From positions 17,836 through 81,835 of the forward strand of contig CAMJQC010000004.1 of NCBI GenBank assembly GCA_946407975.1: 64,000 nucleotides of DNA. The letters are read 5' to 3'. Shown piece after piece: positions 31,028 to 60,791 of this stretch. The notes under the pieces are model-generated. The model did not search any database. It was not told the DNA's origin and saw only the letters and a program-made list of their open reading frames with translations. This stretch comes from an uncultured Bacteroidales bacterium. GTDB taxonomy: Bacteria > Bacteroidota > Bacteroidia > Bacteroidales > F082. How positions within the stretch are numbered: the first letter of the stretch is position 1; the number at the start of each line of letters is the position of its first letter. Made by a program: the position numbers and the translations under genes.

Positions 31028-31801
31028 TTACAACACGAATTTTACTTGTTTCACATCGAAAAACAGGTTGTGGCCTTCGGCGTCGTTGAGATGTAGCCTG
31101 CCGAACGGATCAACGCCCTGCATGTAAAGATGCCTCTTGTTTCCTTCGATTTCATAATCCGCCCATGTCCGATAGCGGAATAGCCGGCGCAAGTATTGCT
31201 GATGCATCTCATGGAAAGTCAGTCGCCAATCTGAAGTGTCATTTTGTTTAGAGGCTATCTCTTTCATCAGCTCGATGGAACCAGCGATGTTTTGGGCCAT
31301 GGTATGAAGCAAGGGCATCAGTTCAAAAGTCTTTCCTGTGATAGCGCGTAACGAAGAAGGATGTGTCGGCCAGTCTTTGAATTGTATTTGATTGACATTC
31401 AATCCAATACCTATAATTGAAATACCCATCTTGCTTCCAGTGATGGTACTATTGATAAGGATGCCGGCAATCTTGTTGGTTTCAAACAAAAGGTCGTTAG
31501 GCCATTTCACATGTGTTTTTTCAGAGGGGAGAATGTTGTCAAGTGTCTTGAGCATGGCAAGAGGAACGGCTTCGGAAAGTGCGAATTGTTGTTCTGCTTG
31601 CAAAAAACTCAAATCAAGAGCTAGGGAGAAAGTGAGGTTTTCTCCCTTTTTGCTCTCCCAGGTGTTGGAGCCCATGCCTTTGCCCGCCGTCTGTTCGTCG
31701 GCGGATACGACAAGACCCCGAATGTCTTCATCTGCCTGTGCTTTTTGCAGGTAAACGTTGGTAGAATCTATCGTTTCAAAGTGTCGATAGCTGAAGTCCA
31801 T
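31028..31801 (-). CDS. birA: Biotin--[acetyl-CoA-carboxylase] ligase (no HTH domain)
   Basis: FETIDSTNVYLQKAQ; ADEQTAGKGMGSNTWESKKGENLTFS; VKWPNDLLFETNKIAGILI. Confidence 0.95.
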   Translation of the reverse strand: MDFSYRHFETIDSTNVYLQKAQADEDIRGLVVSADEQTAGKGMGSNTWESKKGENLTFSLALDLSFLQAEQQFALSEAVPLAMLKTLDNILPSEKTHVKWPNDLLFETNKIAGILINSTITGSKMGISIIGIGLNVNQIQFKDWPTHPSSLRAITGKTFELMPLLHTMAQNIAGSIELMKEIASKQNDTSDWRLTFHEMHQQYLRRLFRYRTWADYEIEGNKRHLYMQGVDPFGRLHLNDAEGHNLFFDVKQVKFVL

Positions 31802-36555: not shown

Positions 36556-38556
36556 ATGAAAGCACTCAACGATTTTCAAAAAGAGATTCTCGCCGGCATT
36601 CCTGATGAGCTGCCGGAAGCGAAACCTTACGACAAGACCATCAACCATGCTCCAAAGCGTAAGGACATTCTTAGCAAAGAGGAAAAGAAACTGGCTGTCC
36701 GTAATGCATTACGTTATTTCCCGGCCAAATTCCATAAGACATTGGCTCCTGAGTTTGCCGAGGAACTTGAAAAATACGGCCGCATCTATATGTACCGTTT
36801 CCGTCCATCCTATAAGATGTATGCCCGTCCTATCGACGAGTATCCTGCCAAGAGCCGTCAGGCTGCCGCTATCATGCTGATGATCCAGAACAACCTTGAT
36901 CCGGCTGTGGCACAGCATCCTCACGAACTCATCATCTACGGCGGTAACGGTGCCATCTTCCAGAACTGGGCGCAATACCGTCTTGTGATGCAATATCTTG
37001 CCAATATGGAAGAGGACCAGACGCTGGCCATGTATAGCGGACACCCGATGGGACTGTTCCCGAGCCATAAGGATGCGCCTCGCGTAGTCGTTACCAACGG
37101 CATGATGATTCCAAACTACTCGAAGCCAGACGATTGGGAACGCTACAATGCTCTCGGTGTTACCCAATACGGTCAGATGACGGCAGGTTCTTATATGTAT
37201 ATCGGACCTCAGGGTATCGTTCATGGAACGACCATCACTGTGTTGAACGCTTCGCGTAAGCAAGGCGGCGGTTCCGCTGGCAAGCTGTTCATCACCGCAG
37301 GTCTGGGCGGCATGTCGGGTGCTCAGCCTAAGGCTGGCGACATCGCAGGTGTGGTGAGCATCACCGCCGAGATCAACCCTGCCGCTACGCAAAAGCGTTA
37401 TGACCAGGGTTGGGTCGATGAAGTGTATGACAACCTTGACGAGCTGTTCAAGCACGCCCTCGCTTCGGTGGCTAAGAAAGAGGCTCGCAGCTATGCCTAT
37501 CAGGGCAATGTGGTGGACCTTTGGGAATATGCCGCCGCTCACGATATCCGTGTAGACCTCGGTTCCGACCAGACCTCCTTGCACAATCCTTGGGCAGGCG
37601 GTTATTATCCGGTAGGACAGAGCTTCGAAGCGTCGAAGGATATGATGGCCAAGGACCCTGACCTGTTTAAATCCAAGGTGCAGGCCTCGTTGCGCCGTCA
37701 TGTAGCTGCCATCAACAAATTGACTGCCAAAGGCATGTACTTCTTCGACTACGGCAACGCTTTCCTGTTGCAGAGCAGCCGTGCGGGTGCCGATATCCTC
37801 AAGGCTGACGGCAGTTTCCGTTATCCTTCCTATGTGCAGGACATCATGGGTCCCATGTATTTTGACTATGGTTTCGGACCATTCCGTTGGGTGTGCACCT
37901 CGGGCAAGCCTGAAGACCTCGCTGTCACCGACGATATCGCCTGCCACGTGCTGGAGACCATTGCCAAGACGGCTCCCGAAGAGATCCGTCAGCAGATGCA
38001 TGACAACATCCAGTGGATTCGAGGCGCACAGGCCAACCATCTCGTGGTCGGCTCGCAAGCCCGTATCCTTTACGCAGACTGCGAAGGCCGTACCAAGATC
38101 GCCGCTGAGTTCAACAAGGCCATCGCCGATGGTCGCTTGAGCGGTCCTGTCGTCCTGGGTCGTGACCACCATGATGTGTCGGGCACCGATTCGCCGTTCC
38201 GTGAGACTTCCAACATTTACGACGGCTCCTGCTTCACAGCTGATATGGCTATCCAGAATGTCATCGGAGACGGTTTCCGTGGCGCTACCTGGGTCAGCAT
38301 TCACAACGGTGGCGGCGTGGGCTGGGGCGAAGTCATCAACGGTGGCTTCGGCATGGTCCTCGATGGCTCTGCTGATGCCGACCGTCGTCTGCACTGCATG
38401 TTGCACTGGGATGTCAACAACGGCATCGCCCGTCGTAACTGGGCCCGCAACGAAGGCGCCACCTTCGCCATCAAACGCGCCATGGATGTCGAGCCTCGCC
38501 TGAAGGTGACGATACCTAATCTGGTGGATGACAATCTGTTAAAGGATTTGTTCTAA
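36556..38556 (+). CDS. hutU: Urocanate hydratase
   Basis: HPHELIIYGGNGAIFQNWAQYRLVMQYL; YIGPQGIVHGTTITVLNASR; GRDHHDVSGTDSPFRETSNIYDGS. Confidence 0.95.
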   Translation: MKALNDFQKEILAGIPDELPEAKPYDKTINHAPKRKDILSKEEKKLAVRNALRYFPAKFHKTLAPEFAEELEKYGRIYMYRFRPSYKMYARPIDEYPAKSRQAAAIMLMIQNNLDPAVAQHPHELIIYGGNGAIFQNWAQYRLVMQYLANMEEDQTLAMYSGHPMGLFPSHKDAPRVVVTNGMMIPNYSKPDDWERYNALGVTQYGQMTAGSYMYIGPQGIVHGTTITVLNASRKQGGGSAGKLFITAGLGGMSGAQPKAGDIAGVVSITAEINPAATQKRYDQGWVDEVYDNLDELFKHALASVAKKEARSYAYQGNVVDLWEYAAAHDIRVDLGSDQTSLHNPWAGGYYPVGQSFEASKDMMAKDPDLFKSKVQASLRRHVAAINKLTAKGMYFFDYGNAFLLQSSRAGADILKADGSFRYPSYVQDIMGPMYFDYGFGPFRWVCTSGKPEDLAVTDDIACHVLETIAKTAPEEIRQQMHDNIQWIRGAQANHLVVGSQARILYADCEGRTKIAAEFNKAIADGRLSGPVVLGRDHHDVSGTDSPFRETSNIYDGSCFTADMAIQNVIGDGFRGATWVSIHNGGGVGWGEVINGGFGMVLDGSADADRRLHCMLHWDVNNGIARRNWARNEGATFAIKRAMDVEPRLKVTIPNLVDDNLLKDLF

Positions 38557-38577: not shown

Positions 38578-38614
38578 AAATACGGATGCCATTAATCGGC
38601 ATCCGTATTTTTTT
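38578..38614 (+). terminator. hutU terminator
   Basis: AAATACGGATGCC ATTAATC GGCATCCGTATTTTTTT. Confidence 0.9.
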
Positions 38615-38738: not shown

Positions 38739-40505
38739 ATGAGCAAAAAAGAAGTGAAATTCAGCCTGGTTTACCGCGACATGTGGCAATCTTCAGGCAA
38801 ATATGTGCCCCGCAAGGACCAGTTGGAAAAGATTGCTCCTTTGATCATCGACATGGGATGTTTCGACCGTGTGGAGACCAACGGCGGTGCCGCCGAACAG
38901 GTCAACTTGCTGTACGGTGAGAACCCGAATCCGTCGGTTCGTGCTTTCACGGCGGCACTGCATAAGGGCGGCATCGAGTGCCATATGCTCGACCGTGCTT
39001 TGAACGCATTGAGAATGAACCCCGTTCCTGCCGATGTGCGTCAGCTGATGTACAAGGTGAAGAAGGCGCAGGGTGTCGATATCACCCGTATTTTCTGCGG
39101 TCTGAACGACGTGCGCAACATCATCCCGTCCATCCAATGGGCTAACGAAGCTGGCATGATCTCGCAGGCTGCCATGAGCATCACCTACTCTCAAGTGCAT
39201 ACTGCCGAGTATTACATCAAGATGGCAGACGAACTCATCGCCGCTGGTGCAAAGGAGATCGCTCTGAAGGATATGGCTGGCGTAGGCCGTCCTGCCTCTT
39301 TGGGCAAGATTGTCGCCCACATCAAGACACAGCATCCTGAAATCAAGGTGCAGTACCACGGTCACACGACCCCGGGTCTCTCGATGGCTTCCATGCTGGA
39401 AGTGGCCAAGGCAGGCTGCGACTACCTCGATGTGGCCATGGAGCCGCTGTCGTGGGGTACGGTGCATCCTGACGTCATCAGTGTGCAGGCCATGCTGAAA
39501 GATGCCGGTTTCCTCGTGAAGGACATCAACATGAAAGCCTATATGGCTGCTCGCAGCATGACGCAGAGCTTCATGGACGACTTCCTCGGCTACTGGATCG
39601 ACCCGCGCAACCGTTATCTTAACTCCCTGCTTTTGGGCGCTGGCCTTCCGGGTGGTATGATGGGTTCGCTGATGGCTGACCTCAAAGGCGCCCACGCCCT
39701 CATCAATATGAACTTCAAGGCGCAAGGCAAGGCCGAACTCAGCGAAGACGAACTGCTCGTCGCCCTCTTTGACGAAGTGCAACGCATATGGCCTATGGTC
39801 GGCAACCCGCCTTTGGTGACGCCGTTCAGCCAATATACCAAGAACATCGCTCTGAAGAACCTCATTGGCCGCAGCATGGGCAAACCCGATTTCAACGACC
39901 TCGACGATGCCATGTGGGGCATGATCCTCGGCAAGTCAGGCAAGCTGCCGGGCACCCTGGCACCCGAAATCGTGGAGCTGGCCAAGCAGAAAGGCCTCGA
40001 GTTCTTCACAGGCAATCCGCAAGACAATTATCCGGACGAACTGCCACGCTTCATCAAAGAGATGGAAGAAAACGGCTGGGACCGCGGACAAGACGATGAA
40101 GAACTCTTCGAGTTCGCCATGCACGAGAAACAGTACCGTGAGTACAAGTCGGGCGAGGCCAAACGCCGTTTCAACCAGGAGTTGGAAGCCAAGATGAAGG
40201 AAAAGTTCGAGAAAGCCGGTGGGGCCGTCAACATCCCCGATCTGCGCGCTTTACGTCATCCGAATGCCGAACCCGTCGTGGCTCCCGTCAGTGGCATAGT
40301 GCTTTGGGAAGTCGACTTCGACGACAAGTCGGTGGCTCCTGCTCCCGGCAAGGTTTATAAGGAAGGCGACCTGCTCTGCGCTATCAGCTCCGACCACGGC
40401 ATGGAACCCGTCTATGCCCTCTGGCCAGGCAAAATCGTAGAGGCTACGGCCGACCAGGGCAAACGCGTTCAAAAAGGTGACACGATAGCTTTTATAGAGA
40501 AATAA
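38739..40505 (+). CDS. Pyruvate/oxaloacetate carboxyltransferase (OadA/PycB-like) with non-canonical C-terminal biotinyl-like domain
   Basis: CT barrel motifs VYRDMWQSSGKYVPR, ALKDMAG, YHGHTTPGL; C-terminal hammerhead-like domain APVSGIVLWEV...KEGDLLCAISSDHGMEPVYALWPGKIVEATADQGKRVQKGDTIAFIE. Confidence 0.85.
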   Translation: MSKKEVKFSLVYRDMWQSSGKYVPRKDQLEKIAPLIIDMGCFDRVETNGGAAEQVNLLYGENPNPSVRAFTAALHKGGIECHMLDRALNALRMNPVPADVRQLMYKVKKAQGVDITRIFCGLNDVRNIIPSIQWANEAGMISQAAMSITYSQVHTAEYYIKMADELIAAGAKEIALKDMAGVGRPASLGKIVAHIKTQHPEIKVQYHGHTTPGLSMASMLEVAKAGCDYLDVAMEPLSWGTVHPDVISVQAMLKDAGFLVKDINMKAYMAARSMTQSFMDDFLGYWIDPRNRYLNSLLLGAGLPGGMMGSLMADLKGAHALINMNFKAQGKAELSEDELLVALFDEVQRIWPMVGNPPLVTPFSQYTKNIALKNLIGRSMGKPDFNDLDDAMWGMILGKSGKLPGTLAPEIVELAKQKGLEFFTGNPQDNYPDELPRFIKEMEENGWDRGQDDEELFEFAMHEKQYREYKSGEAKRRFNQELEAKMKEKFEKAGGAVNIPDLRALRHPNAEPVVAPVSGIVLWEVDFDDKSVAPAPGKVYKEGDLLCAISSDHGMEPVYALWPGKIVEATADQGKRVQKGDTIAFIEK

Positions 40506-59276: not shown

Positions 59277-60791
59277 TTATTTGTTCTTCAAAATGTCGAA
59301 TGCCAGCGGATATTCTTGGACGAATTTCACGCTCTTGGCGATCTCGGTGTACATCACCTTGTCGACTTGCACGAATTCGACGTGCTTTCGGTATTCGGCT
59401 ACGAATTTCTCAATGCATTCCGATGACTTTAGCGGTCTCCTGAAGGCCAATGCCTGGGTGGCGTTAAAGAGCTCGATGGCGAGGATGCGCTCTAGGTTCT
59501 CAGCCACGCGCAGCGCCTTGGTGGCTGCGTTGGCGCCCATGCTCACGTGGTCTTCTTGTCCTTGTGAAGACTCGATGCTGTCGACCGAAGCGGGGGTGCA
59601 GAGCTGTTTGTTCTGGCTGACGATGCTGGCGGCGGCATATTGAGGAATCATGAAACCTGAATTGAGGCCTGGTTCGGCGACGAGGAAGGAGGGCAGGTCG
59701 CGCTTGCCGGCGATGAGCTGGTAGGTGCGGCGCTCACTGATGTTGCCGAGTTCTGCCATGGCAATGGCAAGGAAGTCCAAAGTGATGGCCAGAGGCTGTC
59801 CGTGGAAGTTACCGGCTGAGATGACGAGGTCTTCGTCGGGGAAGATGGTCGGGTTGTCGGTGACGGCGTTGATCTCTTCGCTGAAGACGGAGGCCACATA
59901 GTCGATGGCATCCTTGGAGGCGCCATGGACCTGAGGCATGCAGCGGAAAGAGTAGGGGTCTTGGACGTGTTTCTTCTCTCTCGATATCAGCTCGCTGCCT
60001 TTGGTGAATTCACGGATGCGCTTGGCGGTGACGATCTGTCCGTTGTGGTGGCGTATCTGATGCACTTGGTCGAAGAAAGGCTCGATACGGCCGTCGAAGG
60101 CTTCCAGAGAGACCGTGCCGATGAGGTCAGCGAGATAACTCAGACGGAAGGCTTTCAGCAAGACGTAGGTGCCGTAGCTGCTCATGAACTGGGTGCCGTT
60201 GAGCAGAGCCAGACCCTCTTTCGACTGCAGCGTGATGGGCTCCCAGCCGAATTTAGCCGAGACCAGGGTGGCGGGGACGATTTCTCCTCTATAATGCACT
60301 TCGCCTAAGCCGAGCAGGGGTAACATGAGGTTGGCCAGAGGAGCCAAGTCGCCAGAAGCGCCAAGTGAACCTTGGTTATAAACCACGGGCAGCACGTCGT
60401 TGTTGAAGAAATCGATCAGACGCTGTACGGTGATGACCTGCACGCCCGAATTGCCATACGACAGACTCTGCACCTTGAGGAGGAGCATGAGGCGGATGAT
60501 CTCTTCAGGCACCATCTCGCCCGTGCCGCATGCGTGTGACATGACGAGGTTGCGTTGCAGGGTGCTGAGGTCTTCTTTTGAAATGCTATGGTCGCAGAGC
60601 GAACCGAAGCCAGTGGTCACGCCATAGATGGGTTTGTCAGGGTTTTCCATCTTTTTGTCGAGGTAGTCACGGCATTTCTGGATGCGACGGATGGCATCGT
60701 CGGAAAGGGCGAGTTCATATCCTTCATGGAGAATCTCGTCGACTTGCTTAAAAGTGAGTTCTTCTGAACTGATGTAATGTATCTTTTTCAT
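59277..60791 (-). CDS. hutH: Histidine ammonia-lyase
   Basis: MIO motif GSLGASGDLAPLANLMLPLLG; GSLCDHSISKEDLSTLQRNLVMSHACGTGE; MGANAATKALRVAENLERILAIEL. Confidence 0.95.
   Translation of the reverse strand: MKKIHYISSEELTFKQVDEILHEGYELALSDDAIRRIQKCRDYLDKKMENPDKPIYGVTTGFGSLCDHSISKEDLSTLQRNLVMSHACGTGEMVPEEIIRLMLLLKVQSLSYGNSGVQVITVQRLIDFFNNDVLPVVYNQGSLGASGDLAPLANLMLPLLGLGEVHYRGEIVPATLVSAKFGWEPITLQSKEGLALLNGTQFMSSYGTYVLLKAFRLSYLADLIGTVSLEAFDGRIEPFFDQVHQIRHHNGQIVTAKRIREFTKGSELISREKKHVQDPYSFRCMPQVHGASKDAIDYVASVFSEEINAVTDNPTIFPDEDLVISAGNFHGQPLAITLDFLAIAMAELGNISERRTYQLIAGKRDLPSFLVAEPGLNSGFMIPQYAAASIVSQNKQLCTPASVDSIESSQGQEDHVSMGANAATKALRVAENLERILAIELFNATQALAFRRPLKSSECIEKFVAEYRKHVEFVQVDKVMYTEIAKSVKFVQEYPLAFDILKNK

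Follow-up and report, generated by a model that had tools for sequence, protein, structure and literature searches.

A conserved 5S-like carboxyltransferase of Bacteroidales with a lysine-less biotinyl domain, and its possible part in an ATP-free transcarboxylase

In rumen and gut Bacteroidales (Xylanibacter), propionate formation has been reported to depend on methylmalonyl-CoA decarboxylase, a Na+ pump, and not on transcarboxylase (PMC11575231), and a genome-based survey of gut bacteria recorded transcarboxylase in Actinobacteria (PMC9403272). A family-wide study left aside divergent bacterial homologues resembling transcarboxylases (PMC3199775). In B. thetaiotaomicron, BT1196, which bears the name "pyruvate carboxylase subunit B", drops when sigH-1 is repressed (PMC12596196). 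Finally, the BADC proteins of plants provide a precedent for a functional BCCP devoid of its lysine (PMC11926652).

The gene described here encodes a carboxyltransferase (CT) and lies in a 64,000-nucleotide stretch of DNA from an uncultured Bacteroidales bacterium, hereafter called the window (Table 1). Its reading frame is open and intact, and the translation is identical to the one quoted in the first-pass annotation. An AlphaFold2 model of the whole protein, computed with 28 homologues (pLDDT 83), is composed of a CT barrel, the PYC_OADA region and, at the C-terminus, a barrel-sandwich domain; when searched with Foldseek, it matches the beta chain of a two-subunit pyruvate carboxylase (PC; 5ks8, best match), PC, the transcarboxylase 5S subunit (1rqh) and OadA (2nx9), while the best PDB match by sequence is the transcarboxylase 5S subunit. 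The nearest NCBIfam models are those of PycB (the nearest named one), OadA and 5S, all with scores far under their cut-offs, e.g., 195 bits for OadA (TIGR01108, cut-off 756.5). Since the 5S model (PRK12330) yields 151 bits against a cut-off of 827, the protein is not classed as an orthologous 5S subunit, and we call it 5S-like only for the way in which it would work. The terminator-like stem located 3' of hutU suggests that the CT gene is its own transcription unit. The urocanate hydratase gene hutU (36556-38556) is directly upstream, but an operon uniting the two is unsupported, because the stem lies between them and hutU is found nearby (within 10 kb) in some congeners only. An apparent histidine ammonia-lyase is encoded on the opposite strand (59277-60791), about 20 kb from the CT gene.

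Table 1. Features of the CT gene and its surroundings, in window coordinates
Feature	Position	Strand	Evidence
Lysine-less 5S/OadA-type CT, 588 aa	38739..40505	+	ORF, Pfam, AlphaFold2 model, Foldseek
HMGL-like (TIM-barrel CT) Pfam stretch, residues 127-235	39117..39443	+	Pfam, above cut-off
PYC_OADA conserved carboxylase domain, residues 343-482	39765..40184	+	Pfam, above cut-off, E 1e-12
Pseudo-BCCP, residues 510-588: AccB-like biotinyl fold with thumb-like insert	40266..40502	+	Alignment, AlphaFold2, Foldseek, dN/dS
His553, hairpin tip, at the position of the biotin-acceptor lysine	40395..40397	+	Alignment, AlphaFold2
Asp14 (5S Asp23), metal ligand	38778..38780	+	64/65 lysine-less proteins, remaining one truncated there
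Lys177 (5S Lys184), carboxylated metal-ligand lysine	39267..39269	+	65/65
His207 and His209 (5S His215 and His217), metal ligands	39357..39365	+	65/65
Thr361 in VTPFSQ (5S Thr349)	39819..39821	+	65/65
Terminator-like stem (atacggatgcc/ggcatccgtat) and T run, 3' of hutU	38580..38614	+	Seen directly in the sequence
Biotin protein ligase, BirA-like	31028..31801	-	PF03099, E 3e-19

The first-pass annotation had described the C-terminus as a biotinyl-like domain deprived of its acceptor lysine, a description that our analyses bear out. Although PF00364 (Biotin_lipoyl) scores residues 535-585 below its gathering cut-off (17 bits vs. 22.1), the predicted structure is the barrel-sandwich (hammerhead) fold of BCCP: when modelled alone (pLDDT 86), the domain has the biotinyl domain of E. 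coli AccB (1bdo, TM 0.75) as its top PDB match in Foldseek, including a thumb-like insert as in AccB, and strands 545-551 and 554-559 place Asp552-His553 at the hairpin tip. In an alignment, a check that the first-pass annotation had proposed, the biotin column holds Lys in 27/27 true biotinyl paralogues of the oadB-linked type, vs. none of the 144 lysine-less relatives, in which His (65), Tyr (34), Gly (13), Leu (12) and other residues occur. A lysine shifted along the hairpin was also rejected, any Lys being present within three columns in merely five of the 144 sequences; in one genome (G471), the motif reads E-S-M-L, i.e., a bare Lys-to-Leu change. An assembly error, the objection raised at the outset, is ruled out by the hundreds of independent assemblies that carry the lysine-less form. 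The absence of the lysine is thus a family trait, common across Bacteroidales, where true biotinylated paralogues exist as well, two points that go beyond the first-pass annotation. Some lysine-less homologues from Paludibacteraceae-type MAGs (L042, L044, L052, L067 and others) have an additional Lys/Ala-rich C-terminal tail of 40-60 aa beyond the pseudo-BCCP.

Genome contigs yielded no fewer than 586 related loci, of which the best 80 were retained; all of these belong to Bacteroidales or Bacteroidia. Three forms can be distinguished. Form A (mostly 600-660 aa) has an E-A/S-M-K motif and adjoins oadB in nearly every case with sufficient flank, e.g., oadG-[WP_195398617.1]-oadB in B. finegoldii (L115). 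Form B (about 720 aa) ends with a carrier domain bearing E/D-A/S-M-K. Form C, the window's type, is the one that never has the lysine. Among 49 other genomes of the window's genus, all searched and at least 90% complete, 47 encode it, as the sole copy. In a tree built from the CT part, form A is set apart from forms B and C with full support (100/100), form B branching inside or beside form C. Only this unrooted split is trusted, rooting by conventional 5S proteins having been rejected owing to a too long outgroup branch. The lysine may have disappeared once, with a later regain through fusion, or on several occasions. Two B. finegoldii "plasmids" of about 100 kb, listed as non-mobilizable in PLSDB (NZ_OY725910.1 and NZ_OY725912.1, i.e., L114 and L115), carry housekeeping genes (dusB, dprA, purL and the gene for release factor 3) and appear to be chromosomal fragments submitted under the name of plasmids.

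The CT half looks like an active enzyme. Its TIM barrel and metal site (5S Asp23, carboxylated Lys184, His215, His217) are recognisable in both the sequence and the predicted structure, and the equivalents of Asp23, Gln26, Lys184, Asp185, Met186, His215, His217 and Thr349 are invariant in the lysine-less proteins, except that one truncated sequence is without Asp23. In the biochemistry of PC, the threonine equivalent to 5S Thr349 takes the proton from biotin, and its strict conservation therefore argues for continued use of biotin. Moreover, 5S position 59 is Ala in forms B and C as in 5S itself, vs. Gly in form A. Comparisons within the window's genus gave median dN/dS values of about 0.065 (CT) and about 0.09 (pseudo-BCCP): the CT is the slower-evolving half, and the pseudo-BCCP is under purifying selection, hence kept rather than decaying. 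From its sequence, the lysine-less protein looks like a catalytically competent pyruvate/oxaloacetate CT. As to what the first-pass annotation made of the domain, a pseudo-BCCP complemented by a biotin carrier on a separate protein is supported, while its other two suggestions are unsupported, i.e., a vestigial domain, if this means a decaying one, given the low dN/dS, and a biotin-free enzyme, given the invariant threonine.

A true BCCP was indeed found in 40/40 genomes checked. The genome of the window is a MAG of 1.68 Mb that is 77% complete; as initially noted, the window encodes neither BCCP nor biotin carboxylase, and by PF00364 the MAG has a single true BCCP domain, which is joined to a biotin carboxylase encoded on a different contig. 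The birA-like gene pointed out in the window was confirmed, and it gives the cell the means to attach biotin to a separate carrier. An mmd operon, a 12S-like CT and a separate carrier were not found in this 77%-complete MAG, but they are present in its relatives, including complete congeners (L178, L179, L207), in which the operon MCE-mmdA-mmdD-mmdC-mmdB corresponds to methylmalonyl-CoA decarboxylase and a stand-alone carrier of the MmdC type adjoins mmdA. Nor had the first-pass annotation foreseen that the partner of the lysine-less CT is likely the methylmalonyl-CoA carboxyltransferase rather than a biotin carboxylase.

Among about 40 distinct neighbourhoods, the lysine-less gene stands next to mmdA in only one and alone in the rest, and oadB adjoins it in none. 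In L171 (genome G471), a single strand encodes, in this order, the lysine-less CT, a protein 70% identical to MmdA, a 66-aa MmdD without membrane helix and a 143-aa BCCP with EAMKM, and neither OadB nor biotin carboxylase was found in this genome. Likewise, G411 and G417 have the lysine-less CT, mmdA and a BCCP, along with a truncated MmdD, and are devoid of both OadB and biotin carboxylase, while G501, assembled as a single contig, has the lysine-less CT but no OadB. In these four genomes, MmdD is 58-77 aa long and its membrane helix is gone, whereas pump-type operons retain it, implying a putative soluble complex of MmdA and carrier. Helix-less MmdD proteins (58-87 aa) encoded between mmdA and the carrier, in genomes devoid of OadB, occur at L171:11210-11410, L172:7910-8086, L175:8416-8649 and L177:2431-2649, as well as in L255, L256, L258 and L259. 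About 2 kb downstream of the carrier in G471, L171:13959-18326 encodes a 1455-aa protein whose N-terminus (MAKILGLDLGTNSIGWAVVED) resembles that of Cas9.

A second family of 5S-like CTs, here named T2, exists in Bacteroidales (L274:6485-8221, L256:9190-10884, L260-L279), some members being without any biotin domain and some having a fused EAMKM domain; in G499, the T2 gene is inside the mmd operon. Co-occurrence was studied in 198 genomes of the order, 34 with and 164 without the lysine-less form. With p-values that correct for shared ancestry only in part, MmdA is found in 34/34 genomes with the lysine-less form vs. 129/164 others (p = 0.001), T2 and the lysine-less form are mutually exclusive (T2 in 0/34 vs. 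59/164, p = 2e-6; by family, p = 0.015), and MmdA accompanies either of them in 92/93 genomes vs. 71/105 (p = 5e-10; at the family level, p = 3e-4). T2 and the lysine-less form swap inside families f75 and f87. T2 was found in no genome of the window's genus and, contrary to expectation, in only three genomes of one genus elsewhere in its family. An enrichment of OadB loss among genomes with the lysine-less form was not found (4/34 vs. 35/164, p = 0.24; 4/34 vs. 6/129, p = 0.22, when restricted to genomes with MmdA). Pooling the lysine-less form and T2, a choice made after the data were seen, gives a weakly significant difference (9/10 OadB-less genomes with MmdA vs. 83/153, p = 0.044).

According to the reading that we tend to favour, with some reserve, the window's protein is a 5S-like CT taking its biotin in trans, and it forms a methylmalonyl-CoA:pyruvate transcarboxylase with MmdA (12S-like) and MmdC (1.3S-like). 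Having given up its own biotin, the lysine-less CT would take (carboxy)biotin from a stand-alone carrier of the MmdC type: MmdA would move CO2 from methylmalonyl-CoA to the biotin of the carrier, and the lysine-less CT would then pass it from biotin to pyruvate, giving oxaloacetate, without ATP; the reaction may run in either direction. The retained pseudo-BCCP would probably be a docking or assembly domain. In favour of this reading are the loss of the lysine together with the conserved CT residues, the gene row of L171, the OadB-less genomes G411, G417 and G501, the 14 complete genomes that combine form C with a lack of biotin carboxylase, the constant company of MmdA and the mutual exclusion with T2. 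Against it count the single neighbourhood with mmdA, the presence of OadB in most complete congeners, the missing mmd operon of the window's MAG, the incomplete correction of the statistics for ancestry and the score far below the 5S cut-off. A serious rival, which we nonetheless hold to be rather unlikely, is that the lysine-less CT serves as an alternative alpha subunit of a Na+-pumping oxaloacetate decarboxylase, transferring CO2 from oxaloacetate to biotin on MmdC for release by a shared MmdB/OadB membrane subunit. Most genomes with the lysine-less form do encode both OadB and a BCCP (OadB in 30 of the 34 genomes above and in 8/9 complete congeners checked, with a membrane-type mmd operon where inspected), so that in the window's lineage the CT might supply the pump with carboxybiotin, and operons of the type oadG-oadA-oadB contain its biotinylated paralogue. 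Against such a role stand the four genomes in which the lysine-less CT is found without OadB and with a helix-less MmdD, and the fact that the OadB-linked paralogues all have kept their lysine, while the lysine-less gene was never seen beside oadB.

The other explanations fare less well than the transcarboxylase. That the protein is the beta subunit of an ATP-dependent two-subunit PC, with its biotin carboxylase encoded elsewhere, would agree with PycB as the nearest named model, with the best Foldseek match and with the single biotin carboxylase per genome in the window's genus; yet the latter belongs to an acyl-CoA (MCC-like) alpha chain that has a BT-BCCP of its own and is encoded beside an acyl-CoA dehydrogenase, and 14 complete genomes encoding form C were found to be without biotin carboxylase. 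In these 14, an ATP-dependent pyruvate carboxylase is thus very unlikely, and it is rejected as a family-wide role; we hold this explanation to be decidedly improbable. The loss of the biotin lysine throughout the clade could also point to a biotin-independent enzyme, either an oxaloacetate decarboxylase or an aldol-type lyase, built on the retained CT scaffold, but we deem this improbable in view of the biotin-specific Thr361, invariant along with its surroundings, of the BCCPs in every genome checked and of the close biotinylated relatives using the same CT. Even less probable, at the far end of the range, is a non-catalytic assembly factor, or a brake on another biotin enzyme, after the manner of the plant BADC proteins, which are lysine-less relatives of BCCP that help to assemble the heteromeric ACCase via their thumb (PMC11926652): the window's domain has a thumb-like insert too, but in 65 proteins no catalytic residue of the CT half has been lost, and this half evolves more slowly than the pseudo-BCCP.

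Form B adds a further arrangement. These chimeras (L090, L091, L165, L166, L211-L219, L239, L243-L245, e.g., L216:6496-8670 and L215:5558-7741) combine a 5S-type CT with the BT-BCCP part of an alpha chain resembling that of 3-methylcrotonyl-CoA carboxylase, a part that shows 29-35% identity to L001 over about 215 aa. Their operons are of the leucine/isovalerate type, with genes for an MccB-like CT, a methylglutaconyl-CoA-type hydratase, an acyl-CoA dehydrogenase, an HMG-CoA lyase and a CoA-transferase, and genome searches found no biotin carboxylase in G471, G511 and G429. The chimera is predicted to be an ATP-free methylcrotonyl-CoA:oxaloacetate transcarboxylase, on which a literature search returned no paper. 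More broadly, and only tentatively, Bacteroidales might possess an unrecognised modular set of ATP-free transcarboxylases based on this CT. One form would borrow the biotin of methylmalonyl-CoA decarboxylase through a docking pseudo-BCCP, pump and transcarboxylase sharing their carrier, while in the sister form fusion to the BT-BCCP part would replace biotin carboxylase, the breakdown of leucine and isovalerate being driven by oxaloacetate instead of ATP and bicarbonate.

The lysine-less CT may represent the unrecognised half of a transcarboxylase of the propionate pathway. If it is a missing 5S subunit, some of the CO2 released from methylmalonyl-CoA would return to oxaloacetate, which would alter the ATP and CO2 balance of a main rumen and gut fermentation. 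Proteins of this kind would be misnamed by the automatic label "pyruvate carboxylase subunit B". In addition, they offer a conserved bacterial pseudo-BCCP, similar in this respect to plant BADC, on which the docking role of such domains can be tested.

Among known systems, the 5S subunit of Propionibacterium transcarboxylase (1rqb/1rqh) shares with the window's CT the fold, the metal and substrate residues, Ala59 and the absence of a biotinyl lysine from its own chain, its biotin carrier and 12S being separate proteins, as proposed here; in contrast, the window's predicted CT, about 25% identical to this 5S, adds a lysine-less biotinyl domain and is usually not encoded beside its partners. OadA (2nx9; paralogue WP_195398617.1) has the same succession of CT, PYC_OADA and C-terminal biotinyl fold, and the Bacteroidales paralogues are about 60-65% identical over the CT, but the paralogue carries EAMK, lies between oadG and oadB and has Gly at 5S position 59, whereas the window's form has His553 instead of the lysine, Ala at position 59 and no such neighbours. 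The beta subunit of two-subunit PC (PycB; 5ks8) is similar in overall domain order and fold, but carries biotin and depends on a partner biotin carboxylase, which is absent from many genomes with the window's form, the window's own genome having only the MCC-like chain. T2 (e.g., L274:6485-8221) likewise consists of CT and PYC_OADA, often with no biotin domain, and occurs in the same kind of genomes, yet never alongside the window's form, from which it differs by its distantly similar sequence, the lack of a pseudo-BCCP and, in some members, a fused EAMKM domain. Finally, plant BADC has also kept a BCCP-like domain after the loss of the biotin lysine, but as a stand-alone plastid protein, whereas the window's domain is fused to an intact CT.
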